The notes beneath the pieces were generated by a model. That model saw only the letters and a program-made list of their open reading frames with translations, was not told the DNA's origin and made no database searches. A stretch of 64,000 bases of DNA from Neogemmobacter tilapiae (GTDB lineage Bacteria; Pseudomonadota; Alphaproteobacteria; Rhodobacterales; Rhodobacteraceae). Shown one piece after another: positions 6,358 through 45,679 of this stretch; position 1 is the stretch's first letter; every line of letters begins with the position of its first letter. The position numbers and the translations under genes were made by a program. The DNA lies in contig NZ_BMYJ01000010.1 in assembly GCF_014652215.1 (NCBI RefSeq), positions 1 to 64,000 of the forward strand, given 5' to 3'.

Positions 6358-7347
6358 TTAGATCAGGCCCGCGCTGCGGAACAGCGCCTTGACGTCTGAC
6401 TGGGGGCGCGCGCCGACATGGCCGATCACCTCACGCGCGGCGATGACACCCATTTTGGCGGCGCGTTCCAGCGATTGGCCGGTGGCCATCCCGTAAAGGA
6501 AGCCCGCCGCGAACTGATCGCCCGCGCCGGTGGCATCGACGGGGGTGACGCGGCTGACGGGCGCCTCGGCGCGTTCATCGCCGTGGAAAACCAGCACGCT
6601 TTCGCCCGAACGGGTGCAGACCACCGTTTCACAGGCGGCCCGTGCTTTGGCCAAGGCGGCATCCAGATCGTCGGTTTGGTAAAGCGAGGTCCATTCGTGG
6701 ACATTGCCGATCACGAAATCCATCTGTTCGTTGATCAGCCGAATGAAATCGTCGCGGTGACGGTCCACGCAGAAGGGGTCTGACAGCGCAATCCCCGCCT
6801 TGCCGCCACCCGCATGGCAGGCATTCGCGGCCTTGAGGAAGGCCTGTTTGCCCTTGTCTTTGTCGAACAGATAACCCTCAAGGAACAGCCAATCGGTCTG
6901 GCCCGCCACGGCCTCGCTCACATCCTCGGGCCCCACCTCGGAGGAGATCCCCAGATAGGTGTTCATCGACCGCTCACCATCGGGCGAGACAAAGATCATC
7001 GAACGGCTGGTCGGCAGATCGGCCCCCGCGACCGGCGCATTCGGGAAATCGGTGCCATCCTTGGCCAAGGCCTTTTCATAGAACCGCCCCAGCGCATCAT
7101 CCCGCACCCGTCCGATGAAAGCGGTCTTAAGGCCCAAGGCCCCTAGCCCGGCCAGGCTGTTGGCCACGGAACCGCCCGGCACCTCGGAATGGTTCTTCAT
7201 CGCCGCGTAAAGCGTTTCCGCCCTTTCGCGTTCGACCAGTTGCATGATGCCTTTCTCGATCCCCATCAGGTCCAGAAACACGTCATCGGCCTGTGCCAAG
7301 ACATCCACAATGGCATTGCCGATGCCCACAACCTGATAGCGGCTCAT
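6358..7347 (-). CDS. PfkB-family sugar kinase, probable adenosine kinase
   Basis: A 329-residue PfkB (ribokinase-fold) kinase. The substrate-side GG motif is GGSVANSLAG (about residues 58-67) and the second PfkB signature DATGAGDQFAAGF holds the catalytic base Asp277. It would phosphorylate the 5'-OH of a nucleoside; adenosine is the substrate proposed for alphaproteobacterial relatives of this type, but inosine or another sugar cannot be excluded. The ATG at 7347 overlaps the nth stop (ATGA), so it is co-transcribed and coupled to nth. The open frame continues upstream inside nth and is not used. Confidence 0.88.
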   Translation of the reverse strand: MSRYQVVGIGNAIVDVLAQADDVFLDLMGIEKGIMQLVERERAETLYAAMKNHSEVPGGSVANSLAGLGALGLKTAFIGRVRDDALGRFYEKALAKDGTDFPNAPVAGADLPTSRSMIFVSPDGERSMNTYLGISSEVGPEDVSEAVAGQTDWLFLEGYLFDKDKGKQAFLKAANACHAGGGKAGIALSDPFCVDRHRDDFIRLINEQMDFVIGNVHEWTSLYQTDDLDAALAKARAACETVVCTRSGESVLVFHGDERAEAPVSRVTPVDATGAGDQFAAGFLYGMATGQSLERAAKMGVIAAREVIGHVGARPQSDVKALFRSAGLI

Positions 7348-7988
7348 GCAGTCTTCTCCTCGAACGGACAAAGGTCGTTGATCAGGCAATCCGCACAGCG
7401 CGGTTTGCGCGCTTGGCAGATATACCGCCCATGCAGGATTAGCCAGTGGTGCGCATGATGCTGGTATTCGACGGGAATGTTGTCTTCGATGGCGCGTTCC
7501 ACCGCCACCACATCGCGGCCCGGACAAATTCCCGTCCGATTGCCGATACGGAAGATATGCGTGTCGACGGCCTGTGCCGGATGGCCCCACCACATGTTCA
7601 GCACCACATTCGCCGTCTTGCGGCCCACCCCCGGCAGGCTTTCCAAGGCTGCCCGCGAACTGGGCACCTGACCACTAAAGCGTTCGACCAGCAGGCGCGA
7701 CAGGGCGATCACATTCTTGGCCTTGTTGCGGAACAGGCCGATGGTCTTGATGTGCTGCGTCAGCGCCTCTTCACCCAAGGCCAGCATCTTTTCTGGCGTG
7801 TCAGCGATGGGGAACAGCGCGGCAGTCGCCTTGTTCACCCCGATGTCGGTTGTCTGCGCCGACAGGGCCACCGCCACCAACAGGGTAAAGGCGTTTGTAT
7901 GGTGCAATTCGCCCTTGGGTTCAGGTTCCACCGCCTGAAAGCGGCGAAAGACTTCGCGGATCGTGTTATAGTCCATCTGGGGCTGCAT
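7344..7988 (-). CDS. nth: Endonuclease III
   Basis: A 214-residue DNA glycosylase/AP lyase for oxidised pyrimidines in base excision repair. The helix-hairpin-helix LPGVGRKTA places the Schiff-base lysine at Lys124 and the conserved catalytic Asp is in VDTHIFR (Asp142). A C-terminal 4Fe-4S loop has Cys191, 198, 201 and 207 with the C-X6-C-X2-C-X5-C spacing. The ATG at 7988 is preceded by AAGGAAG, better than the ATG four codons later or the in-frame start at 8045. It is the first gene of an nth-kinase pair. Confidence 0.95.
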   Translation of the reverse strand: MQPQMDYNTIREVFRRFQAVEPEPKGELHHTNAFTLLVAVALSAQTTDIGVNKATAALFPIADTPEKMLALGEEALTQHIKTIGLFRNKAKNVIALSRLLVERFSGQVPSSRAALESLPGVGRKTANVVLNMWWGHPAQAVDTHIFRIGNRTGICPGRDVVAVERAIEDNIPVEYQHHAHHWLILHGRYICQARKPRCADCLINDLCPFEEKTA

Positions 7989-34083: not shown

Positions 34084-34959
34084 TCAGGGGGCTGCCGCAA
34101 TCACCTTGACGACCGCCGCCCCCAATTCGGAAACTGCGGCGTTGCGGGTGGACCAGTTGGCGGGCGTATCCGACAGATAGATCGCCACAAACCACGGCGC
34201 GCGGCCCGGTGGCGTGATCATCGCCACGATGTTGCGCGTATGGCTTCGCCCGCCGCCCGAACGGTCAGCAATCGCCCAGTCTTGCGGGGCATGGACACGC
34301 AGCAGAGGCCCGGTGACGCCCCCCAAAGACATCCAGCCCGCCAGCAAAGCGCGCGATTCCGGTTGCAGCACATCGCCCAGCAACAGCGTCTCCCAGGTCT
34401 GCGCCATCGCTCTGGGGCTGGTCGTGTCGCGTGGGTCACCGGGGGCGAACAGGTTCAGCGCGGGTTCCTTCCTGTCCAGCCGCGTCGTTTCATCACCGAT
34501 CCGGCGCAGAAAGGCCGTCACCTCCTCGGGGCCGCCCAATCGGTCGATCAACAGGTTGGCCGCGCCGTTGTCGCTTTGATCCAGCGTGGCCAGACACAAT
34601 TCATCCACGCGCAGGCTCTCACCGACCCGGTTTTCCGTCACCGGCGCATGGCCATGAATTTCGCCTGCGCGGATGTCCAAGCCTTCGTCCAAGGTGATCT
34701 GACCCTGATCAACGCGTTCCAGAACCGCGCCGCAAAGCACAGATTTGAAGGTGCTGGCCATCAGAAAGCGTTCGTCCGGGCGATGCGCCCATTCCCAGCC
34801 CGTGCCACTGTCGCGGAGGAACAGGCCGATGCGGGCATCCAGCCGCTTTTCTAATGCGCGGATGGTGTCGCCCAAGGCATCAATGGGATCAGGCCCGGCC
34901 ATTGCGGGGACCGGAAGCAGAAATGCCGCGAGGGCGAAGGCAAGACAGCGGTTCAACAT
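34084..34959 (-). CDS. Class A beta-lactamase with RSG motif (carbenicillinase-like)
   Basis: A 291-residue secreted serine beta-lactamase. A signal peptide ends near AMA (about residue 21). All class A motifs are present: Ser69-X-X-Lys72 (ASTFK), Ser129-Asp-Asn131 (SDN), Glu165-X-X-X-Asn169 (EPALN). The KTG box reads Arg233-Ser-Gly235, as in carbenicillin-hydrolysing (CARB/PSE) enzymes. Cys76 and Cys122 match the TEM C77-C123 disulfide. It would cleave penicillins in the periplasm. Chromosomal, 56 bases from polA; no LysR-type ampR partner adjacent. Whether it is expressed is unknown. Confidence 0.87.
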   Translation of the reverse strand: MLNRCLAFALAAFLLPVPAMAGPDPIDALGDTIRALEKRLDARIGLFLRDSGTGWEWAHRPDERFLMASTFKSVLCGAVLERVDQGQITLDEGLDIRAGEIHGHAPVTENRVGESLRVDELCLATLDQSDNGAANLLIDRLGGPEEVTAFLRRIGDETTRLDRKEPALNLFAPGDPRDTTSPRAMAQTWETLLLGDVLQPESRALLAGWMSLGGVTGPLLRVHAPQDWAIADRSGGGRSHTRNIVAMITPPGRAPWFVAIYLSDTPANWSTRNAAVSELGAAVVKVIAAAP

Positions 34960-34997: not shown

Positions 34998-35885
34998 CTA
35001 GCGCTTGAAATCCAGCGGCAGATTAAAGCTGTATTGCCCAGCCGCCAACCCTTTGGGGGCTGCGGGGAACCGGGCCGACTGGACGGCTTTCACCGCCGCC
35101 TGATCCAGAGCGGCATTGCCCGAGGATTGGGTGATGCCGACACCCACAAGGTTCCCGCCGGTATCCACCGTCAGGCGCAGCTTCACCCGACCCTGCGCCC
35201 CATCGGCCCCGCGCGGATAGGATTTGCGGCGTTCGACCCGGGCGCGGATCGTGGCACCCCATTCGGCCTTGATGCTGTCCTGCCCCTTGGCCCCTGTCGC
35301 CGCCTGCGCCTTGCCACCGTCGCCCGCCGTGGCCCCGCCGCCTGATCCAGCGGCCACCTGGCCTTCTGATCCGGCCTGCGGCTGCACCGGCTTTTCCTTT
35401 TTCGGTTTTTCCCTTTTGGGCTCGGCCCGTTCCTTTTTCGGCTCGGGCTTGGGTTCCGGTTTCTTCACCGGCTCCGGTTCTGGCACCAGTTCCGGCACCG
35501 GCTCGGGCGCGACCGGGGCTTTATCGGCCACTGGGGCGGCATCCATCACCGGCAGAGCGACCGAGGCAGGCATGTCGGGCATCGGTGTGATCGGGGCCAG
35601 TTCCGGCATTTCGGGCAGGGCTACCGGCGCGACCGGCGTTTCCGGCATCGTTTCGACCACTGGCGGCGGGGCCTCCCATTCCTTGATCAGCGCGGCCAGA
35701 TCGTCAGTCACCTGTTCCACCGCCACAACCGGGGCCACGGCGGCCATCGATACCAGCGCCTCGCCCCCCGCCCCTGCGGCCGTGGCCGCCCCGCTGTCCG
35801 AGGGCATCAGTGCAAAGGCCGCGCCATGCAAACCCAGCGCCAGCCCCAAGGCCACCAACCCCTGAATGCGCCCCGCCTGTCTCAT
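34998..35885 (-). CDS. tonB: TonB energy-transducing protein
   Basis: A 295-residue periplasm-spanning protein: an N-terminal membrane anchor (about residues 6-27), a long Pro/Glu/Lys-rich region (VPEPEPVKKPEPKP and similar), and a C-terminal TonB domain with VKLRLTVDTGGNLVGVGI and ending LPLDFKR. It couples the ExbB-ExbD proton motor to outer-membrane receptors. Last gene of exbB-exbD-exbD-tonB, overlapping exbD (ATGA). ATG at 35885 is taken. Its closeness to the heme receptor suggests dedication to heme uptake. Confidence 0.9.
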   Translation of the reverse strand: MRQAGRIQGLVALGLALGLHGAAFALMPSDSGAATAAGAGGEALVSMAAVAPVVAVEQVTDDLAALIKEWEAPPPVVETMPETPVAPVALPEMPELAPITPMPDMPASVALPVMDAAPVADKAPVAPEPVPELVPEPEPVKKPEPKPEPKKERAEPKREKPKKEKPVQPQAGSEGQVAAGSGGGATAGDGGKAQAATGAKGQDSIKAEWGATIRARVERRKSYPRGADGAQGRVKLRLTVDTGGNLVGVGITQSSGNAALDQAAVKAVQSARFPAAPKGLAAGQYSFNLPLDFKR

Positions 35886-36304
35886 GCCCCGCGCCCGTCC
35901 GTCACCAGTTCCACCCGCTGAAAGCCCATCGCCGCCAGCTGGGGCATGATCCGCGTCAGCGCCACCGCTGGGGTCTTTTGATCGGTATGCACCGCCACCA
36001 AGGGCGGTTCCGCCGCGCAATCTGTTGCGGCGCAGAACGTTTCGCGCGCGCGGGCCAGTTCGGCCAAAGCCACATCGCCGACCATCCGGCGAAAGCCGGG
36101 TTGCCCCGTGGGCGACAGGAACAGGGCCATCGTGCTGCGGGTTTCATCACCTGCCGCAACGCGCGGCAGATCGACGGCAAAGGGTGCCGCCGGGGCCATG
36201 CGGGCCGCGATCAGGAAAAAGATCAGCAGGACGCAAACCACGTCGATCAAGGGCAAAAGCCCATCAGCATGACCGCGCGTTTTGGGTTGGGGGTTTATCC
36301 GCAT
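35882..36304 (-). CDS. exbD: ExbD/TolR-family protein (second copy)
   Basis: A 140-residue protein with one membrane helix (DVVCVLLIFFLIAAR, about residues 21-35) that begins with the conserved LPLIDVV, including the proton-path Asp, and a periplasmic domain. It stands between another exbD-like gene and tonB, so the motor probably uses a mixed pair of ExbD types. The two ExbD proteins are only distantly alike. Confidence 0.88.
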   Translation of the reverse strand: MRINPQPKTRGHADGLLPLIDVVCVLLIFFLIAARMAPAAPFAVDLPRVAAGDETRSTMALFLSPTGQPGFRRMVGDVALAELARARETFCAATDCAAEPPLVAVHTDQKTPAVALTRIMPQLAAMGFQRVELVTDGRGA

Positions 36305-36305
36305 G

Positions 36306-36704
36306 TCATTCCACCAACAGGATGCGCACCATCCCCGCCTTTTGCAAAAGGTCCAGCACCGCGCCCAGTTCCTGCATCCCGGCCCCTTCCCCTGTCCGCA
36401 GGATCAGGGCATCCCCCTTGTCCTGCATCAAGGGTTCCAAGGCCGCCACCAACGCCTCGGGCGCGACGGGCACTCCGTTCAGGGCCAGCCCCTCGCCCCG
36501 CAGGTCAATCAGGCGCGGCGGGCCGTTCCAGACAGCCCCTCCGGCGTTGGCCGAAGGCCCCGCCACATCCAATTGCAATCCGTTCTGCCCGCCGAAACGG
36601 GTGGCCAGCATGAAAAAGACCAAAAGCAGAAAGATCAGGTCGATCATCGGAATAAGGTTCGGCCCCCGCCTTTTGCGCGGGCGCGTCAGGCTTTGGATTG
36701 CCAC
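36306..36704 (-). CDS. exbD: ExbD/TolR-family protein (first copy)
   Basis: A 132-residue ExbD. The N-terminal Arg-rich tail is followed by LIPMIDLIFLLLVFFMLATRF (about residues 17-37), with the proton-carrying Asp in PMIDLIF, then a periplasmic domain. It overlaps nothing but is only one base from the second exbD and four from exbB. Confidence 0.9.
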   Translation of the reverse strand: MAIQSLTRPRKRRGPNLIPMIDLIFLLLVFFMLATRFGGQNGLQLDVAGPSANAGGAVWNGPPRLIDLRGEGLALNGVPVAPEALVAALEPLMQDKGDALILRTGEGAGMQELGAVLDLLQKAGMVRILLVE

Positions 36705-36708
36705 GGCC

Positions 36709-37431
36709 CTACTCCGCCGCCGCTTGGGCGTGCATCCGGAAGGGCATCACCTCATGCGTCCCACTGTCCACCCGCGCCATGCGCCGCGCCAGAATGCGGG
36801 TGGCATTGTCCTCCATATCCAGCGCCAGCCGGTCGGTCACGCTCTCATACCAGGTCAGCGCCACCTGCGCCGGGATGGCGACACCCATGCCCGCCGCCGT
36901 GGTGATCAGCAATTCCCAGATGCCCCCAGCCAGCGTCGCCGGATCCGCGTTGGCCCCTGCCGCCTGCAAGGATTTGAACGAGGCGATCATGCCCGTGACG
37001 GTGCCCATCAGACCCAGCAAAGGCCCCAGAACGGCCGCCAGTTCCAGCCCCCGCAGCCCGGCCTGCGCCTCGGCCAGCAGACGCCGTGCGACGCGCGTCA
37101 CCTCGGCCTCGGCCTCGGCGCTGGTCAGGCTGTCGTCCGTCGCCACGTCCATGGCCGCGCGGATCAGGCGGAAACGGGTGCCGCTTTTGCCCTCCACCAG
37201 CGCCCGCGCTTGGGCACGCTGGCCCGCCTGCCACAGATCGACAGCGCGGTTGGCACGGCCACGGCCCGTCCAGGCCCCCAGCGACAACAGCCGCATCGCC
37301 TTCCACAGGATCAGCGTGACCGTGACCACCGACAGAAAGGCAATCGTCCAAAGCGGCAGGCCGCCCATCGCCAGAATGGCCAGAACTTGGCCCCAAAGGC
37401 CCTCGGCGCCGGTCGCGGCATGCAATTCCAT
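36709..37431 (-). CDS. exbB: ExbB/MotA/TolQ-family proton channel
   Basis: A 240-residue membrane protein with three helices, including PLWTIAFLSVVTVTLILWKA (early) and the conserved LAAVLGPLLGLMGTVTGMIASF block (about residues 128-150). With ExbD and TonB it converts proton motive force into opening of the outer-membrane receptor. First gene of the four-gene motor operon, divergent from hmuS across a 301-base spacer. Confidence 0.92.
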   Translation of the reverse strand: MELHAATGAEGLWGQVLAILAMGGLPLWTIAFLSVVTVTLILWKAMRLLSLGAWTGRGRANRAVDLWQAGQRAQARALVEGKSGTRFRLIRAAMDVATDDSLTSAEAEAEVTRVARRLLAEAQAGLRGLELAAVLGPLLGLMGTVTGMIASFKSLQAAGANADPATLAGGIWELLITTAAGMGVAIPAQVALTWYESVTDRLALDMEDNATRILARRMARVDSGTHEVMPFRMHAQAAAE

Positions 37432-37732: not shown

Positions 37733-38794
37733 ATGCGAAAGAACCTGACAGCCGAGGCGATCCGCGCCCTGCGCGCCGAACATCCGAAACCCCGCGCCCG
37801 CGATTTTGCCGAAGAGCAGGGTATTGCCGAAGGGCAGTTGGTCGCGGCCTATGTTGGCCAGCCGCATGGGCCCGTGCGGATTGAGGCAGGGCCGAAACGG
37901 TTGCTGCCCTTGGTGACGGCTTTGGGCGATGTGATGGCCCTGACCCGCAACGAAAGCGCCGTGCATGAAAAGCGGGGCGTCTTTGGCGAATACAAGGGCA
38001 GCGACCATGTGGGCTTGATTCTGGGCCGCGAAATCGACCTGCGGGTCTTCCCGTCGCATTGGGTCAGCGCCTTTGCTTTGGAAGAACCGGGCGATGATGG
38101 GTCGATGAAGCGCTCGATCCAGGTTTTTGATGCGGCGGGGGATGCCGTTCACAAGATCCATCTAAAGCCGGAAAGCGATGCGGCGGCTTTTGCGGCGCTG
38201 GTCGCCGAATTGCGTCTGCCGGAACAGTCGTCCGATCTGCCCGTCGCGCCCCGCAAAGCGGAGCCGGGGCCAAAGATTACCTCGGAAAACCTGGCGGCCA
38301 TGCGTGCCGAATATGACGCGATGACCGACCCGCACCAATTCATCATGATGGTGCAAAAGCACGGCTTCAACCGTCTGGGTGCCTACCGCGCCTTGGGGGC
38401 GCCGCGTTGCAAGCTGTTGGCCAAGGACACAGTGACGACGGTTCTGGAGGCGGCCTCGCAAGGCGGTTTCCCGATCATGATTTTCGTGGGCAACGCGGGG
38501 ATGATCCAGATCCATTCCGGCCCGGTCGAAAAGATCATGCCGATGGGCCCTTGGATCAATGTGATGGACCCGCGTTTCAACCTGCATCTACGCGCGGACC
38601 ATGTGGCCGAGGTCTGGCTGGTGGAAAAGCCCACCAAAATCGGGCCTGCCGTGTCGATCGAGGCGTTTGATGCCCAAGGCGGGCTGATCCTGCAAATGTT
38701 CGGGCGGCGCGATGCTGAAGACACCTATGCCGGAGTGGAACAATGGAACGCCCTGGTGCGCGGCCTGCCGCCCGTGGAAATGGAGCTAGCCTGA
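37733..38794 (+). CDS. hmuS: Hemin-degrading factor / heme trafficking protein HmuS
   Basis: A 353-residue cytoplasmic protein with two HemS/HmuS repeats (about residues 15-150 and 175-350). HEKRGVFGEYKGSDHVGLILG in the first half and PHQFIMMVQKHGFNRLGAYR in the second carry His residues suited to heme binding. These proteins accept heme from the ABC transporter and may break the ring to release iron. First gene of the plus-strand heme operon; its TGA overlaps the hmuT ATG by one base. Confidence 0.93.
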   Translation: MRKNLTAEAIRALRAEHPKPRARDFAEEQGIAEGQLVAAYVGQPHGPVRIEAGPKRLLPLVTALGDVMALTRNESAVHEKRGVFGEYKGSDHVGLILGREIDLRVFPSHWVSAFALEEPGDDGSMKRSIQVFDAAGDAVHKIHLKPESDAAAFAALVAELRLPEQSSDLPVAPRKAEPGPKITSENLAAMRAEYDAMTDPHQFIMMVQKHGFNRLGAYRALGAPRCKLLAKDTVTTVLEAASQGGFPIMIFVGNAGMIQIHSGPVEKIMPMGPWINVMDPRFNLHLRADHVAEVWLVEKPTKIGPAVSIEAFDAQGGLILQMFGRRDAEDTYAGVEQWNALVRGLPPVEMELA

Positions 38795-39624
38795 TGCGCG
38801 GAATTCTTTTGGGCCTGACGCTGGCTTTGGCCAGTGGGCAGGGGGCTTTGGCTGAACGGATCATTTCGCTGGGCGGGACGGTCACGGAAATCGTCGTGGC
38901 CTTGGGGCATGAGGGCGATCTGGTGGGGCGGGATATGACCTCCACCTATCCCGAAAGCGTGCGGGCCGTGCCGGATGTGGGCTATTATCGGCAATTGGCC
39001 GCCGAAGGGGTGCTGTCGCTGACGCCCGATCTGATCCTGGCCGATGCCGATGCCGGCCCGCCCGAGGTGGTGGCGCAGTTGCAGGCGGCGGGGGTGAAAT
39101 TCGTGCAGACCGCGCCGGATGAGGGGATCGAGAATATTGCCGCCAAGATCACCACCATCGCCGCCGCCTTGGGCGAAGAGGCGAAGGGGGCCGAACTGGT
39201 GGCGAAAGTGACGGCCGATCTGGCGGCGGTGCAGGCCGAAGCGGCGGCGGTGGAAGGCCCGCGCAAACGGGTGGTCGTCATTCTGGCGGTGCAGGGCGGC
39301 AAGATTATGGCCGCAGGGCAGGACACGACAGGAGAGCTGATGCTGGCGCTTTCGGGGGCCGAGAACGCCTTGCAGGGCTTTAGCGGCTATAAGCCCGTGA
39401 CGGATGAGGCGATGCTGGCCGCGGCACCCGATGTGATTCTGATGATGGACCGGGGGCCTGAGACGATGTCGAACGCCGATCTCTTCGCTTTGCCCGCGCT
39501 GAAAGGTTCACCGGCTGCGGCAGACCAAGCAGTGATTCGCATGAACGGGGTGAAACTGCTGGGCTTTGGCCCGCGCACGGCAGAAGCGGCCCGCGAATTG
39601 CTGACCGCTTTTTACGGGGGCTAG
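38794..39624 (+). CDS. hmuT: Periplasmic heme-binding protein HmuT
   Basis: A 276-residue substrate-binding protein of the cobalamin/ferric-siderophore type fold, with a signal peptide (residues 1-20, cleavage near ALA). RIISLGGTVTEIVVALGHE at the mature N-terminus and the DVILMMDRGPETM region are typical. The likely heme Tyr is in VGYYRQLAAEG (about residues 66-76). It passes heme to HmuUV. The ATG at 38794 overlaps the hmuS stop. Confidence 0.94.
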   Translation: MRGILLGLTLALASGQGALAERIISLGGTVTEIVVALGHEGDLVGRDMTSTYPESVRAVPDVGYYRQLAAEGVLSLTPDLILADADAGPPEVVAQLQAAGVKFVQTAPDEGIENIAAKITTIAAALGEEAKGAELVAKVTADLAAVQAEAAAVEGPRKRVVVILAVQGGKIMAAGQDTTGELMLALSGAENALQGFSGYKPVTDEAMLAAAPDVILMMDRGPETMSNADLFALPALKGSPAAADQAVIRMNGVKLLGFGPRTAEAARELLTAFYGG

Positions 39625-39625
39625 A

Positions 39626-40687
39626 ATGGTCACGGTCGATCCTACCGATCTGGGCGGCGGCGCGCCGCGCGGTCTGCGGATCGACCTTGGTCTTTGGGCC
39701 TTGCTGGCGCTGGCGGTCTGGCTGGGGCTGACCGTCGGCGCCACCGGCATTTCGGTGCCGGGTCTTTTCTTTGATTGGGTGCAGGGCCTGCCCCTGTCGG
39801 ACCGCGACCGCATCATCCTGATGGAAATCCGCCTGCCGCGTCCGGTGGCGGGGGCGGCCGTCGGGGCCGCTTTGGCGGTCTCGGGTGCCCTGATGCAGGG
39901 CCTGTTCCGGAACCCCTTGGCCGATCCGGGCTTGGTGGGGGTTGGTGCCGGCGCGGGCCTTGGCGCTGTCAGTGCCATCGTGCTTGGCAGCCTTTTGCCT
40001 GTGGGCGTGCTGGCCGCCGTGGGGATGCATCTTGTGCCCCTCGCGGCCTTCCTGGGCGGCTGGGGCACGACCCTGCTGCTTTACCGCATGGCGCGGCAGG
40101 GTGGGCAGGTCAGCATTGCCACGATGCTGCTGGCCGGTATTGCCATTGCCGCGCTGGCTGGGGCCTTGACCGGTATCCTGATCCAGATGGCCGATGATAA
40201 CCAATTGCGTGACCTCACCTTCTGGGGCCTTGGTTCATTGTCCGGCATTGGTTGGGAACGTTTGGCCTTTGCCCTGCCGTTGATCCTGCCCGTTCTGCTG
40301 CTGTCACCCCGTCTGGCGCGGGGCCTGAATGCCTTGGCGATGGGTGAACAGGCCGCTTGGCAGATGGGGATTGAAACCGAACGGCTGAAATCGCTGACCG
40401 TCCTGTCGGTGGCCGCAGCCACCGGCGCTGCCGTCGCCATTTCCGGCGGCATCGGCTTTGTCGGCATTGTCGTGCCCCATCTTCTGCGCATCGCCCATGG
40501 CCCCGACAACCGCCTGCTTTTGCCCCGCGCCGCCCTGCTGGGGGCGGCCCTCCTGTTGCTGGCCGATGTTGCCGCCCGTTCGCTTGTGCCACCCTCGGAA
40601 CTCGCCATCGGCATTGTCACCGCCTGCCTTGGTGCGCCGGTCTTTCTGTGGATCCTGCTGCGCCCCGGACAGGGGGCCCATCTATGA
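39626..40687 (+). CDS. hmuU: Heme ABC transporter permease HmuU
   Basis: A 353-residue FecCD-type permease with about ten membrane helices. The LPRPVAGAAVGAALAVSGALMQGLFRNPLADPGLVGVGAG segment (about residues 68-108) and SGGIGFVGIVVPHLLRI near the end are diagnostic of this family. It forms the inner-membrane channel for heme. Starts one base after hmuT stops. Confidence 0.95.
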   Translation: MVTVDPTDLGGGAPRGLRIDLGLWALLALAVWLGLTVGATGISVPGLFFDWVQGLPLSDRDRIILMEIRLPRPVAGAAVGAALAVSGALMQGLFRNPLADPGLVGVGAGAGLGAVSAIVLGSLLPVGVLAAVGMHLVPLAAFLGGWGTTLLLYRMARQGGQVSIATMLLAGIAIAALAGALTGILIQMADDNQLRDLTFWGLGSLSGIGWERLAFALPLILPVLLLSPRLARGLNALAMGEQAAWQMGIETERLKSLTVLSVAAATGAAVAISGGIGFVGIVVPHLLRIAHGPDNRLLLPRAALLGAALLLLADVAARSLVPPSELAIGIVTACLGAPVFLWILLRPGQGAHL

Positions 40688-41469
40688 TCCGCGCCGAGAA
40701 ATTGACCTTGGGCCACGGTAGCCGGACCTTGATCCGCGCCTTGGATTTTGAGGCAAAGCCGGGCGCGATCACCGTCATCGCCGGGCCGAACGGCGCGGGT
40801 AAGACCACGCTTCTGCGCGCCCTTACCGGCGAATCCCGCCCCTTGGCGGGGCAGGTCACATTGAACGGCCGGAATCTTGCGGCCCAAAAGCCTGGCCATC
40901 TGGCCCTGCAACGCGCGGTTCTGCCGCAATCGCCGCAAATGGCCTTTGCCTTCCGTGCCGATCAGGTGGTGTCGATGGGGCAAGAGGCGGGTCTTGCCGC
41001 CGGGCGCCGCGGCATCGTCCCCGCCGCCTTGGCCCGTGTTGGCCTCTCTGATTTCGGCCCAAGGGTGCTGACCACCATGTCGGGCGGCGAACAGTTGCGC
41101 GTCCATCTGGCCCGTGCCTTGGCACAAGTCTGGGAACCCGTCGGCCCCAATGGCCCCTGCTGGCTTTTGCTGGATGAACCCGTCGCCAGTCTGGATATCG
41201 GCCATCAGTTGCAAGTGATGAACCTTGCGCGCGCCTTTGCCGATGCCGGGGGTGGCGTCATTGCCGTGCTGCATGACCTGAATCTGACGGCCATGTATGC
41301 GGGCCATGTCTGCCTTCTGGGCAAATCCGGGCGGATTGCCGAAGGTCGCCCCGATCAGGTGCTGACCGATTCCCATCTGCAATCGGCCTATGATTGTGCC
41401 ATTCGCGTCAACACTTTGCCCACCAATGGCCCATTCCTGCTACCTCAGGTCGCAGGCGCTGCCGCTTGA
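40684..41469 (+). CDS. hmuV: Heme ABC transporter ATP-binding protein HmuV
   Basis: A 261-residue ATPase. Walker A GPNGAGKTTLL (about residues 36-46), signature MSGGEQLRVHLARAL, Walker B LLLDEPVASLD and switch His in HDLNLTAM are all intact. It drives HmuU. ATG at 40684 overlaps the hmuU stop by four bases; an upstream in-frame start inside hmuU is not used. A 120-base spacer with its own promoter follows. Confidence 0.95.
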   Translation: MIRAEKLTLGHGSRTLIRALDFEAKPGAITVIAGPNGAGKTTLLRALTGESRPLAGQVTLNGRNLAAQKPGHLALQRAVLPQSPQMAFAFRADQVVSMGQEAGLAAGRRGIVPAALARVGLSDFGPRVLTTMSGGEQLRVHLARALAQVWEPVGPNGPCWLLLDEPVASLDIGHQLQVMNLARAFADAGGGVIAVLHDLNLTAMYAGHVCLLGKSGRIAEGRPDQVLTDSHLQSAYDCAIRVNTLPTNGPFLLPQVAGAAA

Positions 41470-41490: not shown

Positions 41491-41519
41491 TTGACAAAAA
41501 TTGTCGGGAATGTTAGCCC
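41491..41519 (+). promoter_or_regulatory. Promoter and candidate iron/heme operator of first hemophore gene
   Basis: A consensus TTGACA (41491-41496) and TAGCCC (41514-41519), 17 bases apart. The -35 overlaps GACAA-AAA-TTGTC (41492-41504), a perfect 5-bp inverted repeat. TGAC-N7-GTCGG(G)AATG matches the sequence upstream of hmuS at 37559-37578. It gives the hemophore-receptor genes a start site separate from hmuSTUV. Confidence 0.55.
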
Positions 41520-41589
41520 GCCTCATCCGATGCAGCCCGCCCCTTGCCAGTCAGCATCCCGAAAAACGCTGATAACGGGAAAACCAAAA

Positions 41590-42627
41590 ATGGCCGCTGC
41601 TGCAAATACCCTCACCATCGACGCCACCGCCTTGGACGGCATCCATTTCAACACCTATATCGCCGACTACTTTGCCGGGCTTTCGGGGGGCACCCAGAAA
41701 TTCTATGGCGGCACGCCGGACGCGGCCTTTGGCCAGACCTATTACATGAACGGCGACCAGTCGGTTTACCGTTTCAAAACCGGTGAACCTGCGGTCGATT
41801 CGCCCAAGGCCGTTCTCGTCGGCGGCGATGAGATCGCCTATGACTTCATCCACCACGGCGCGGCCAATGGCCACGGTTTCTCGGGCACGATCGATTCAAT
41901 CACCTTTGGCAATTGGATCGAAGGCACCACCACCGGCACCCAAGGCAATGGCGATGCGGGGCTGGTCACCGGCTTTGAAAACCAACTCATCCTTTCGGGC
42001 TTCAATCTGGTGACAGCTGTCGGAACCGGGCCGGGCACCAACAACCTTGTTCATACACTGCACAACCTTTTGCGCACCGGCAAAGCTTTGGGCGATGCCG
42101 AAGGCATCGGCATCTATGACATCATCGACGACTATTCCCTGGCCTTCAACGGCTCGGCTGGCCAAGACACCGTCAATGGCTTTGCCTTTGACGATGTTCT
42201 GAAAGGCAATGCCGGGGCTGACGTGCTGCGCGGCTTTGGCGGTGATGATCAGGCCATCGGCGGCATCGGCACCGACACGCTGACGGGCGGCGAAGGCAAT
42301 GACAGCCTTTGGGGCCAAGGCGGCAACGATCGTCTGAACGGCGGCGCTGGCAACGACTATCTGCATGGTGGCTTTGGCGCAGACCGCCTGACAGGCGGGG
42401 CAGGGGCCGATCTGTTCGTGTTCCAAGTCAAGGGCGGGGTGGATACCGTCGTCGATTTTGGCAATGGCGCAGACAAGCTGGACGTTTCGGCGCTGGGCCT
42501 TTCCGGTCTGGCTGATTTCAAGATCACCGAGACCAAGAAATATGTCCAACTCAGCGCCGAAGGCACGACGATCCGTCTGCTGGGCCTGGATGCCGACGAT
42601 CTGTCGGCGGGCGACTTCCTGTTCTGA
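41590..42627 (+). CDS. HasA-like hemophore fused to RTX repeats
   Basis: A 345-residue protein. Residues about 15-190 resemble HasA hemophores: IHFNTYIADYFAG, KFYGGTPDA, AYDFIHHGAANGHGF (Tyr84 with His88/89 and His95 nearby, as in the HasA heme loop with Tyr75 and His83), then SGFNL and LVHTLHNLL. Residues about 200-275 are calcium-binding GGxGxDxLx repeats. The C-terminus ends GDFLF, a type I secretion signal pattern. No Sec signal. It would be secreted and bind heme for the receptor that follows. ATG at 41590 is chosen; a TTG at 41491 is inside the promoter. Confidence 0.8.
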   Translation: MAAAANTLTIDATALDGIHFNTYIADYFAGLSGGTQKFYGGTPDAAFGQTYYMNGDQSVYRFKTGEPAVDSPKAVLVGGDEIAYDFIHHGAANGHGFSGTIDSITFGNWIEGTTTGTQGNGDAGLVTGFENQLILSGFNLVTAVGTGPGTNNLVHTLHNLLRTGKALGDAEGIGIYDIIDDYSLAFNGSAGQDTVNGFAFDDVLKGNAGADVLRGFGGDDQAIGGIGTDTLTGGEGNDSLWGQGGNDRLNGGAGNDYLHGGFGADRLTGGAGADLFVFQVKGGVDTVVDFGNGADKLDVSALGLSGLADFKITETKKYVQLSAEGTTIRLLGLDADDLSAGDFLF

Positions 42628-42645
42628 TCACGCTGCAACAAAGGG

Positions 42646-42667
42646 GGCTGGCCTTCGCAGGCCAGCC
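42646..42667 (+). promoter_or_regulatory. Hairpin ahead of heme receptor start
   Basis: GGCTGGCCT-TCGC-AGGCCAGCC is a perfect 9-bp stem with a tetraloop lying 7 bases before the receptor ATG (42675). No clear Shine-Dalgarno remains outside the stem and there is no T-run. It may lower receptor translation or protect the upstream hemophore mRNA from 3' decay, giving more hemophore than receptor. Confidence 0.6.
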
Positions 42668-42674
42668 ATTTGCC

Positions 42675-44636
42675 ATGTCTCGCAACGCCACCTGCCTTAT
42701 TTGTCTGGCCGCCTTTTGGCCTGCCACCCTTGTTGCGCAAGAAGCGGGCGAGGTGACGGATCTGGATGCCATCACGGTCACAGCACCGGATCAGACCGCA
42801 GGCAGCGGCGTGGCCGGGTTGGGGCTGGATCAGCCGGGCGAAACCGCCCTTTCCGGCGCGGCTTTGTCCCGGCAGCAGGGGCAGGGTCTGGCGGGTATGC
42901 TGGGCTCTGTCGCGGGCGTCACCATCGACCAGCCCGCCGAAGAGGCGGGCATGGCCGTCAACATCCGCGGCATGCAGGATGTGGGCCGCGTCGCCGTCAC
43001 CATTGACGGCGTGCGCCAGAACTTCGCGCGTTCGGGGCATGGGGCCAATGGCCAGTTCTTTGCCGACCCCGAAATGCTGCGTTCGGTCACCGTCACCCGT
43101 GGCCCGCAGGGCGGGGCAGGGGCTGTCGCGGGTGGTGTCGCCCTGACCACCGTTGGGGCCGATGATCTGATCGACGATGGCGAGACTCAAGGGGGCGAGG
43201 TCCGCCTGCGCTATGGGGATCTGACCGACACCCCCACTTTGCATCTGGCCTGGGCCAAAAGGTTCGACAACGGGCTGGATCTGACCTTTGCCGGAACCCG
43301 CACCGACGAAGGCGACTATCGTGCTGGCAATGGTGACGACATCTTTGCCGCCCAGACCAAGAACAGCCTTCTGGCCAAAGTCGGCTATGAACTGGCCAGC
43401 GATCAGCGCCTGCAACTGGGCTTTTCGCATCTGCAAGAAGATTACACCACCGGCAAGGCCGCCGGAACACCCCGCGCCAATACGGCGATCAACGACACGA
43501 TCACGCTGGATTACAGTTTGAACCCCTCGGATCGGATCGATCTCAAGGCCACGGTCTATCTGACGGAAACCGAACTCGATCAGCGCGCACTTTTGGCAGG
43601 CCTCACCACCCGCTCTTATGCCACCCGCACCACCGGGTTAAAGCTGGGCAATATCATGCTGTTTGACGGGCTGGGTGCTGAACACAGCCTGACCCTTGGG
43701 CTTGAGGCGTTTCGCGACAAGGTCGCCACCGAAGACCCGGACAACACCGCTGGAACCCTCACCCCCTCGGGCGAACGCACCGTTTGGTCGCTTTCCGCCG
43801 AGGATCGCATGGATTTCGGCCGCCTTGCCCTGACCTTTGCCGCCAAGGCCGAAGGCTATGACCTTTCCAGCGTCGATGGCGGTTCTGACGGCCATGGTTT
43901 CACCCCCCGCCTTGGCGTCGATTTTGAACTGAACGAGGGGCTGACCCTCTTTGCCAGCGCCGCCAAGACCTTCCGCCCCCCCGCCTTGTCCGAAGCGCTG
44001 GTGAACGGCAGCCATCCCCCGCCGGCTGACTTTGACATCCGCCCCAACCCCAACCTTTTGCCCGAACGCGGTGAAAATCTGGAACTGGGCCTGTCCCTTT
44101 CTGCCCAAGATGCTTTTGCCGCTGGCGACAGCCTGACCGGTCGCCTGACCGCCTTCCGCAACGATCTGCGCGACTATATCGGGCTGGAATGGCAGGGCGG
44201 CTTCTTTGACGGCTATTACCAATATGCCAACATCAGCGCCGTCCGCATCGAAGGGGTCGAACTTGAGGCCGCCTATGATAGCGGTCGTTTCTTTGGCAGC
44301 CTTTCCGCCCAATCCATGCGCGGCATCGACCGCACCACTGGCGCGGAACTGGAAAGCGTTTCGCCTGACAAACTGGTGCTGACCGCAGGCCTGCGTTCCG
44401 CCGATGAGCGCACCGAATACGGCCTGCGCGGCACCATGACCGGGGCCAAGGAAAACATGGCCTTGGGTGGCGAGCGTTGGCAGACCCTTGACCTCTTTAT
44501 CAATCACGAGGTCGGCGAAAATGGTCTGTTCAGCCTAACGGTGAACAACCTGACCGACCAAGCCTATATCCCCCATCTCTCCACCGAGCCAGCGCCGGGA
44601 ATCAACGCGCAAGCCTCGTTCACCCTGCGGTTCTGA
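42675..44636 (+). CDS. TonB-dependent heme/hemophore receptor
   Basis: A 653-residue outer-membrane receptor of HmuR/HasR type. Signal peptide 1-21, TonB box DAITVTA (about 30-36), plug domain to about 150, then a 22-strand barrel ending in the outer-membrane motif SFTLRF. The heme-receptor landmarks KTFRPPALSEALVNGSH (a variant FRAP box with a His) and NPNLLPERGENLELG lie around residues 435-475. It is flanked by two HasA-like genes, so it probably takes heme from them as well as free heme. A hairpin sits just before its start. Confidence 0.9.
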   Translation: MSRNATCLICLAAFWPATLVAQEAGEVTDLDAITVTAPDQTAGSGVAGLGLDQPGETALSGAALSRQQGQGLAGMLGSVAGVTIDQPAEEAGMAVNIRGMQDVGRVAVTIDGVRQNFARSGHGANGQFFADPEMLRSVTVTRGPQGGAGAVAGGVALTTVGADDLIDDGETQGGEVRLRYGDLTDTPTLHLAWAKRFDNGLDLTFAGTRTDEGDYRAGNGDDIFAAQTKNSLLAKVGYELASDQRLQLGFSHLQEDYTTGKAAGTPRANTAINDTITLDYSLNPSDRIDLKATVYLTETELDQRALLAGLTTRSYATRTTGLKLGNIMLFDGLGAEHSLTLGLEAFRDKVATEDPDNTAGTLTPSGERTVWSLSAEDRMDFGRLALTFAAKAEGYDLSSVDGGSDGHGFTPRLGVDFELNEGLTLFASAAKTFRPPALSEALVNGSHPPPADFDIRPNPNLLPERGENLELGLSLSAQDAFAAGDSLTGRLTAFRNDLRDYIGLEWQGGFFDGYYQYANISAVRIEGVELEAAYDSGRFFGSLSAQSMRGIDRTTGAELESVSPDKLVLTAGLRSADERTEYGLRGTMTGAKENMALGGERWQTLDLFINHEVGENGLFSLTVNNLTDQAYIPHLSTEPAPGINAQASFTLRF

Positions 44637-44659
44637 CCGCAGCAAAGAAAGGACCGACC

Positions 44660-45679
44660 ATGGCCATCAAGATCACCCTCACCGCCAATGCTGAAACCGG
44701 CGCAGGCGTCGATTTCAACGCGGATTTCGCGGCTTTCTTCAAGGATTTTGAACCCTACGGCTTTCCCCTTATGCTGAACCCCGCTGGCAGCGATCAAACC
44801 ACCCAGATCGTGCACTTGGATACCCCCGTGAATGGCCAAGAGGCCAACACCAAGGCCCTTGTCCTGAATGGGGCTAACTTCACCTATACCTTCTCCAACC
44901 ACTCCGTCAGCGGCCGGATCGATTCACTCCAGCTTGTCACCCTGGGTGGCGCTTGGAACCCCAACACCAACGACGTCCGCTATGAAAACGGCCTGCTGTC
45001 GCCCAACACCACCGGAATGATCAGCTTTAGCGGCCTGAACATCACCAACCCCGTCGGCGTCAAAGGCCGCGTCCACGAGATCGTCAAGGAATTCATGGGC
45101 GGCGGCCCGGATGGCAACAAGGCCGGATCGGCCGCGATCACCAAGGAAATCTGGGCCAAGGCCCACAATGTCATCGGTTCCACCGGCGACGACCGCTATC
45201 TGGGCAGCAAGTTTGGGGATGTGGTCAAAGGCAACGGTGGTGGCGACCACCTGAACGGGCGCGTTGGCAATGATACGATCACCGGCGGTGCTGGCGATGA
45301 CAGGCTGCTGGGCGGTGCCGGTGCTGATCGTCTGGTGGCCGGCGCAGGCGATGATATCCTGACGGGGGGCAAAGGGGCCGATCGCTTTGTCTTTGCGACG
45401 ATGGACGATGACGCCGCCCATCGGATCACCGATTTCAAACCCGGCCAGAAGGACAAGATCGACCTGCGGGCGGTGGACGCCAATACGCTCAAGACCGGCG
45501 ACCAAGCCTTTGCCTTCAAGGGTCAGGCCGCGTTTTCTGGCAGCGCAGGCGAATTGGTCTTTGCCAAAAGCGGCACCAGCCTGATCTTGCAAGGTGATAT
45601 CGACGGTGACGGTCTGGCCGACTTCAGCATTACCTTGAACAATCTGGCCACCCTGCGCGCCGCCGATCTGTTCCTCTAA
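44660..45679 (+). CDS. Second HasA-like hemophore fused to RTX repeats
   Basis: A 339-residue relative of the protein at 41590. Residues about 15-150 are HasA-like: VDFNADFAAFFKDF, GANFTYTFSNHSVSGRIDSL with Tyr76 and His81 as probable heme ligands, then FSGLN and VHEIVKEFMGG. RTX calcium repeats GNDTITGGAGDDRLLGGAG are at about 195-240, and the protein ends AADLFL, again a type I secretion-like end. It is 23 bases after the receptor, in the same operon, and is clearly diverged from the first copy. No type I exporter genes are in the window. Confidence 0.78.
   Translation: MAIKITLTANAETGAGVDFNADFAAFFKDFEPYGFPLMLNPAGSDQTTQIVHLDTPVNGQEANTKALVLNGANFTYTFSNHSVSGRIDSLQLVTLGGAWNPNTNDVRYENGLLSPNTTGMISFSGLNITNPVGVKGRVHEIVKEFMGGGPDGNKAGSAAITKEIWAKAHNVIGSTGDDRYLGSKFGDVVKGNGGGDHLNGRVGNDTITGGAGDDRLLGGAGADRLVAGAGDDILTGGKGADRFVFATMDDDAAHRITDFKPGQKDKIDLRAVDANTLKTGDQAFAFKGQAAFSGSAGELVFAKSGTSLILQGDIDGDGLADFSITLNNLATLRAADLFL

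Follow-up and report, generated by a model that had tools for sequence, protein, structure and literature searches.

Two RTX-tailed HasA-type proteins and one HasR-like receptor form a probable variant heme-acquisition system in Neogemmobacter tilapiae

A gene cassette of Neogemmobacter tilapiae probably encodes a variant of the Has heme-acquisition system, in which two old and mutually different HasA-type hemophores, each with an RTX tail, are combined with a single HasR-like receptor. The window, i.e. the whole stretch of 64,000 nucleotides that was analysed, carries the three genes on its forward strand. P1, a type 1 HasA-RTX protein of 345 aa (41590-42627), is followed after 47 bases by a HasR-like TonB-dependent heme receptor of 653 aa (42675..44636) and, after a further 23 bases, by P2, a type 2 HasA-RTX protein of 339 aa (44660-45679). 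The earlier note had described this layout as a pair of hemophores flanking one TonB receptor, and the receptor does lie between the two genes. The start of P1 was set at the ATG at 41590 because similarity to its relatives begins there; an alternative start at TTG 41491 was rejected, since this triplet belongs to a promoter-like hexamer and the relatives' similarity starts at 41590.

The surroundings of the cassette are those of a heme uptake locus. Immediately upstream and on the same strand, Pfam identifies heme import genes in HmuSTUV order (37733..41469), comprising a HemS/ChuX-type protein, a binding protein, a FecCD permease and an ABC ATPase. Further upstream lie divergent ExbB-type and TonB-type genes on the reverse strand (34998..37431; PF01618 and PF03544), together with two small genes in the positions of ExbD. 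At 1e-10 neither of these small ORFs matches NCBIfam; both match ORFs found between or beside ExbB and TonB in two of the loci described below (L049 and L050). Next to this group, a beta-lactamase gene on the reverse strand (34084-34959) passes the threshold of the general class A model (272.4 bits, cut-off 200); its nearest model is that of the RCP family, yet it stays below the RCP cut-off (329.2 bits, cut-off 600).

The N-terminal halves of P1 and P2, which the earlier note had called HasA-like, share the HasA hemophore fold according to structure prediction. AlphaFold2, run without templates on alignments of 21 rows (P1) and 15 rows (P2), modelled the domains with pLDDT values of 89.3 and 91.7, respectively. 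In P1 the domain covers residues 6-187 (41605..42150) and in P2 residues 1-172 (44660..45175), as delimited by Foldseek, VIA-align and the alignments. Every Foldseek match in the PDB at E<=0.001 is a HasA structure, 36 of 36 for P1 and 44 of 44 for P2, and the next unrelated rows follow at E 0.34 and 0.065. VIA-align, which re-examines Foldseek's own matches, superposes the P1 domain on HasA with Z 15.4 (rmsd 2.5 over 146 aligned residues; unrelated rows at most 2.7) and the P2 domain with Z 14.4 (rmsd 2.9 over 140; unrelated rows at most 3.7).

Sequence comparison points in the same direction once the domains are considered separately. Full-length scans of P1 and P2 return RTX-type families only, plus weak unrelated rows, and do not name the HasA family; N-domain profiles were adopted because the full-length P1 search pulled in mostly unrelated RTX proteins. 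Against the Pfam HasA model (PF06438) the P1 domain scores 17.2 bits (E=0.0041), short of the curated cut-off of 26.3, and the P2 domain has no match. The same model is touched at E<=10 by 11 of the 21 P1-type domains (best 4e-7) and by nine of the 15 P2-type domains (best 2.8e-7); four of the 36 full-length proteins match it at E<=0.01. Early profiles of five rows were weak, with P1 reaching Yersinia HasA alone (E=0.14) and P2 reaching HasAp (0.0025). The later P1 profile matches three PDB sequences, all HasA (best E 0.017). With the P2 profile 22 are matched, 21 HasA entries (best E 2.2e-5) and ecotin at 0.3. As single sequences P1 and P2 barely match (E=0.017); their profiles match each other with a probability of 99.2.

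P1 and P2 resemble the canonical proteins (Serratia HasA, Pseudomonas HasAp and Yersinia HasA; PF06438) in fold, in a Tyr75/His83 pair and in a neighbouring TonB heme receptor, but differ in the RTX tail, the presence of two paralogous types per locus, the missing His32 and the score below the Pfam cut-off. Because none of the canonical HasA features of a score above that cut-off, a His32 and the absence of an RTX domain is found in either protein, we place them within the HasA superfamily but outside HasA proper, in a sister branch.

The earlier note had placed a Tyr and a His at the position of the heme loop. In a joint alignment with two canonical HasA proteins, every P1 and P2 row indeed has a Tyr in the Tyr75 column and a His in the His83 column; the residues concerned are Tyr84 and His95 in P1, and Tyr76 and His81 in P2. 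Tyr75 and His83 are numbered as in HasA, and review passages name them too. The remaining axial ligand of HasA, His32, has no counterpart, with no His in its column in any P1 or P2 row of this alignment. The 36-row full-length alignment has as its sole invariant columns Tyr84, His95, Gly99, Asp193 and Asp202 (P1 numbering). A further histidine of P1, His88, lies four residues past the Tyr and is invariant in 21 of 21 type 1 proteins, whereas neither P2 nor the two canonical HasA rows have a His in its place. The fetched loci were collected with two patterns, one of which contains AYD[FY]IH and thus both Tyr84 and His88, so that the invariance of these two residues partly reflects selection by the search; this does not apply to His95 or to the residues of P2. 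The spacing from Tyr to His differs between P1 and P2, and so does the interval between the Tyr and the I of the IDS strand, which measures 17 residues in P1 but 11 in P2, a loop difference that the earlier note had observed.

The second ligand His32 is not present in every known HasA, the Yersinia protein being an example. PDB titles include holo HasAp H32A (3mol, and 3mom, prepared with imidazole present), and since such holo structures exist, a HasA-type protein could bind heme even after losing His32. Reviews give the heme site of HasA as His32, residue 75 (printed as Thr75) and His83, or as a His-Tyr pair (PMC11442138, PMC12670364). On the strength of the alignments, heme in P1 and P2 would be clamped by the Tyr-His pair without a His32-type second ligand.

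The C-terminal parts of both proteins are built like the tails of RTX exoproteins. The calcium-type repeats that the earlier note saw behind the HasA half score above the PF00353 cut-off in P1 (E=2.4e-23) and P2 (E=1.2e-13); with the motif positions they place the repeats at residues ~188-277 of P1 (42151..42420) and ~173-244 of P2 (45176..45391). The ends that it listed, GDFLF and DLFL, are present as well (...SAGDFLF and ...AADLFL). The fused architecture recurs in relatives, with PF00353 matches in 36 of 36 aligned P1/P2-type proteins. Nonapeptide repeats, an uncleaved hydrophobic C-terminus and the absence of a visible signal peptide from P1 and P2 are shared with RTX substrates of type I secretion systems, which P1 and P2 differ from in carrying a HasA-type domain. 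The terms 'calcium-loaded' and 'hemophore' are drawn from the repeats, the fold and the invariant residues, and would suit both proteins.

Two pairs of type I ABC and HlyD genes are encoded in the genome, both on contigs other than that of the cassette. In one pair (contig C5) both proteins exceed their cut-offs (ABC 669.1 bits, cut-off 510.15; HlyD 369.8 bits, cut-off 208.65), and in the other (contig C7) the HlyD protein does so (304.6 bits) and the ABC protein, with 354.3 bits, falls below. Among the 20 loci searched with these proteins, L059 is the only one in which ABC and HlyD genes are linked to the cassette; there the pair, of which both members exceed their cut-offs, lies beside the receptor and P1. 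The region concerned (3847-12362 of L059) combines ABC and HlyD genes with P1, a receptor gene in divergent orientation and one more RTX protein of HasA-like type.

HasA itself is described as lacking an RTX domain although it is exported by type I secretion, and as depending on SecB to be kept unfolded (PMC8277102, PMC3034196); the former paper, a review, agrees with the earlier note that Serratia HasA is not fused to RTX repeats. The hemophore literature searched, with most subscription papers outside its reach, describes no RTX-fused HasA, and the terms HasA, HasR and hemophore are all absent from a paper on heme uptake in roseobacters (PMC5225302). A related case is a 2079-aa protein of Dechloromonas aromatica, likewise a HasA-like domain on a large exoprotein; the accessible portion of its source describes it as a filamentous haemagglutinin rather than an RTX protein, with no receptor pair (PMC2907700). 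A natural fusion of HasA and RTX permits a direct test of what an RTX tail contributes to secretion and folding.

The receptor is a member of the heme receptor family TIGR01785 (371.2 bits, cut-off 316.85), and in the host genome it alone exceeds this cut-off, three further regions scoring lower. Its best PDB match is HasR (E 1.5e-38), followed by ShuA (2.5e-34), which thus scores nearly as well. In the alignment with the HasR chain, His122 falls on residue 189 and His447 one position before 603; His189 and His603 are the heme ligands of HasR. The motif histidines in the plug and in the FRxP-NPNL loop are both kept in 16 of 16 receptors, that of the window included. The receptor is shorter than HasR (653 aa, compared with 865 for the chains of HasR). 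As to the N-terminal signalling domain of HasR, similarity begins at residue 98 of that protein, and the domains that Pfam recognizes are the plug and the barrel only. Two domain profiles run over the host genome recover P1 and P2 and no third HasA-like protein. The observed gene order and receptor similarity suggest that both P1 and P2 hand heme to the single HasR-like receptor.

The cassette recurs outside the host. Twenty loci were fetched from genomes of other species, and in 14 of them P1, receptor and P2 follow each other on one strand (L042, L045-L047, L049, L050, L052-L058 and L060; the P1 frame is interrupted in L057). The bacteria with the trio order belong to the Rhodobacterales, the Hyphomicrobiales and others, and live in soil and in the sea; a hemophore route is thereby indicated in Rhodobacterales and rhizobial relatives. 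The other six loci lack the trio: L041, L043, L044, L048 and L051 have P1 only within the fetched flanks, and L059 has the divergent receptor and the additional HasA-like RTX protein. When full-length P1 was compared with 149 genomes of the family, 142 had a match, mostly to unrelated RTX proteins, and matches that span the query occur in the host's own genome and four others; all four have the trio, and three coincide with loci of the set of 20. The recurrence of the order in 14 of 20 loci and in four of these four genomes argues against a cassette assembled by chance. Within the family P1 is sporadic (nine of 394 genomes by the P1 domain profile). Plasmid p5 of Gemmobacter fulvus repeats the window's order from the import genes through P1 and the receptor to P2; its P1 carries the annotation hypothetical, its P2 that of an M10 C-terminal protein. 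Public labels of this kind, 'hypothetical protein' and 'M10 family metallopeptidase C-terminal', conceal P1/P2-type genes. In Shinella, P1-type genes are found on three plasmids, and receptor and P2 are not listed in the stretches examined on two of these.

A Pfam HasA search found nothing in the host genome and three matches in 299 genomes of the phylum, which provided the canonical yardsticks. A type 2 profile matches two of 385 genomes of the class, the host's own and G657, where the matching frame also ends in an RTX-like tail. The G657 protein (L076), from another family, is type 2-like and has, besides that tail, a stretch NHGSFYDG near the His32 position; it is possibly a link between canonical HasA and the RTX-fused branch.

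The two types are distinct and probably old. The 36 aligned proteins comprise 21 of type 1 and 15 of type 2; the L039 copy (genome G034) is included in alignments A1 and A2 and left out of A3, A4 and A7. In the tree, P1, P2 and a third type, P3, are each separated by a single branch from everything else, the two canonical HasA proteins included (support 98/98 for P1, 100/99 for P2 and 100/100 for P3). The idea that P2 is a chance duplication of P1 was rejected, as each type occupies one side of a branch with 15 and 21 rows. P3 and P1 domains occur in either order on one RTX chain in L043, L044, L045, L051, L056 and L060, so that six intact type 1 relatives have two HasA-like domains; a seventh, L057, has them across the interrupted frame. 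Five P3 domains that were examined show Tyr-x4-His, the same spacing as P2. Separate clades with different heme loops would fit a division of labour between P1 and P2, such as the different heme or hemoprotein targets that the earlier note considered. Beside the trio of L045 (Mesorhizobium sp. L-8-3), a further divergent HasA-like protein (6479-7636) sits on a long branch of the tree.

Overall, the gene content is that of a Has-like system with a new architecture, RTX-fused, paired and sometimes two-headed, and its mechanism would be the following. P1 and P2 would leave the cell by type I secretion, with an export system whose genes lie on another contig, and fold outside once their RTX repeats bind calcium. 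Both would bind heme by their Tyr and His and pass it to the receptor encoded between their genes; TonB/ExbB and the HmuSTUV-type proteins, judged by their families, would then import it. Points that count against this reading are the scores below the Pfam HasA cut-off, the missing His32, the location of the secretion genes on other contigs, the six loci without the trio and the sporadic occurrence of P1. A more far-reaching version, in which a calcium-gated modular hemophore has RTX-tailed heads that fold only outside, two heads of unlike specificity jointly attack heme-bearing proteins and feed one receptor, a new leader RNA controls the cassette and the heads are joined on one chain in some relatives, is conceivable but less likely than not.

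Several other readings were weighed against this variant Has system. The two proteins could form a relay, in which only one docks on the receptor and is supplied by its partner with heme extracted from hemoproteins, the two-domain relatives being a fused relay. Two separate clades kept side by side, the six intact chains with two HasA-like domains and the unlike Tyr-to-His spacing would all suit such a relay, but in five of the 20 loci P1 is accompanied by neither P2 nor receptor in the fetched flanks, and we regard it as conceivable yet doubtful. Alternatively, the RTX tail could serve mainly to hold the HasA domain near the cell or matrix, not for secretion and folding. Consistent with this, RTX repeats are universal among the aligned proteins, and Cadherin domains, also matched in three of the 36 proteins, suggest adhesion in some relatives; the tails in the window, however, are short and match no Pfam adhesion family, which makes surface-retained scavengers unlikely here.

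The pocket could also bind another tetrapyrrole or ligand, and P1 or P2 would then not carry heme. The loss of His32, loop lengths unlike those of HasA, and the HasAp entries with phthalocyanine and other porphyrin-like ligands among the PDB matches of P2 leave some room for this. Yet the location, with a heme importer on one side and a TIGR01785 heme receptor on the other, and the invariant Tyr and His speak for heme, and a different ligand appears quite improbable. That P1 and P2 are ordinary RTX proteins whose N-terminal domains resemble HasA by chance is hardly credible: the RTX-only full-length scans and the public annotation as hypothetical or M10 C-terminal proteins would agree with it, but fold, profile and residue evidence for HasA and the synteny with a heme receptor do not.

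For the variant Has system we also considered how the cassette may be expressed. A promoter-like site upstream of P1 includes a -35-like hexamer, TTGACA, at 41491..41496 on the forward strand, which is invariant in six of six upstream regions and was not reported by a generic sigma-70 scan. It is followed on the same strand by a leader hairpin (41529..41558) with a covarying outer stem in nine sequences; L050 has the TTGACA and lacks the hairpin motif. In the nine-sequence alignment 98.7% of the cells are paired, and covariation is 0.201 versus 0.102 in shuffled alignments, with none of 500 shuffles as high. Pairs changed on both sides number two, a count equalled in 31 of 500 shuffles; kinship among the rows inflates such scores. 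A leader model, R1, was built on six sequences and gave five strong matches in nine genomes of the family. As these were all training sequences, the genus of G360 was searched, the host's own genus consisting of one genome. R1 matches five of 11 genomes there, G360 itself being a training row, and three of the new copies lie at the cassette: L119 and L120 before P1, and L118 before a receptor with no P1 between. A fourth match, L121, adjoins no cassette gene and was dropped from the pair count.

Between 37000 and 46500 Rfam has no match, and a search for an Irr-type box returned a single weak site, which lies outside the cluster and is within chance expectation. The motif TTGACANNNNTTGTC occurs exactly at 41491 and has 15 sites with at most two mismatches versus 9.7 expected, and no regulator is named for this reason; the portion of PMC4618611, on the Iron-Rhodo-box, that was available prints no consensus. 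For hasA of P. aeruginosa, post-transcriptional control is proposed (PMC6449446). Taken together, a promoter-like site and a structured leader belong to the cassette itself, and their conservation suggests activity, the likeliest reading of the hairpin being an mRNA-stabilising or regulatory leader. A second, GC-rich hairpin found by folding lies in the gap between P1 and the receptor (42646..42667, forward strand) and is terminator-like on the reverse strand; in the region as a whole, terminator-like sites are no more numerous than in shuffles. Of 14 such gaps, 11 reach a folding energy of -18 kcal/mol or below, and the other three are just 9-14 bases long; the hairpin perhaps sets the expression of P1 above that of the receptor.
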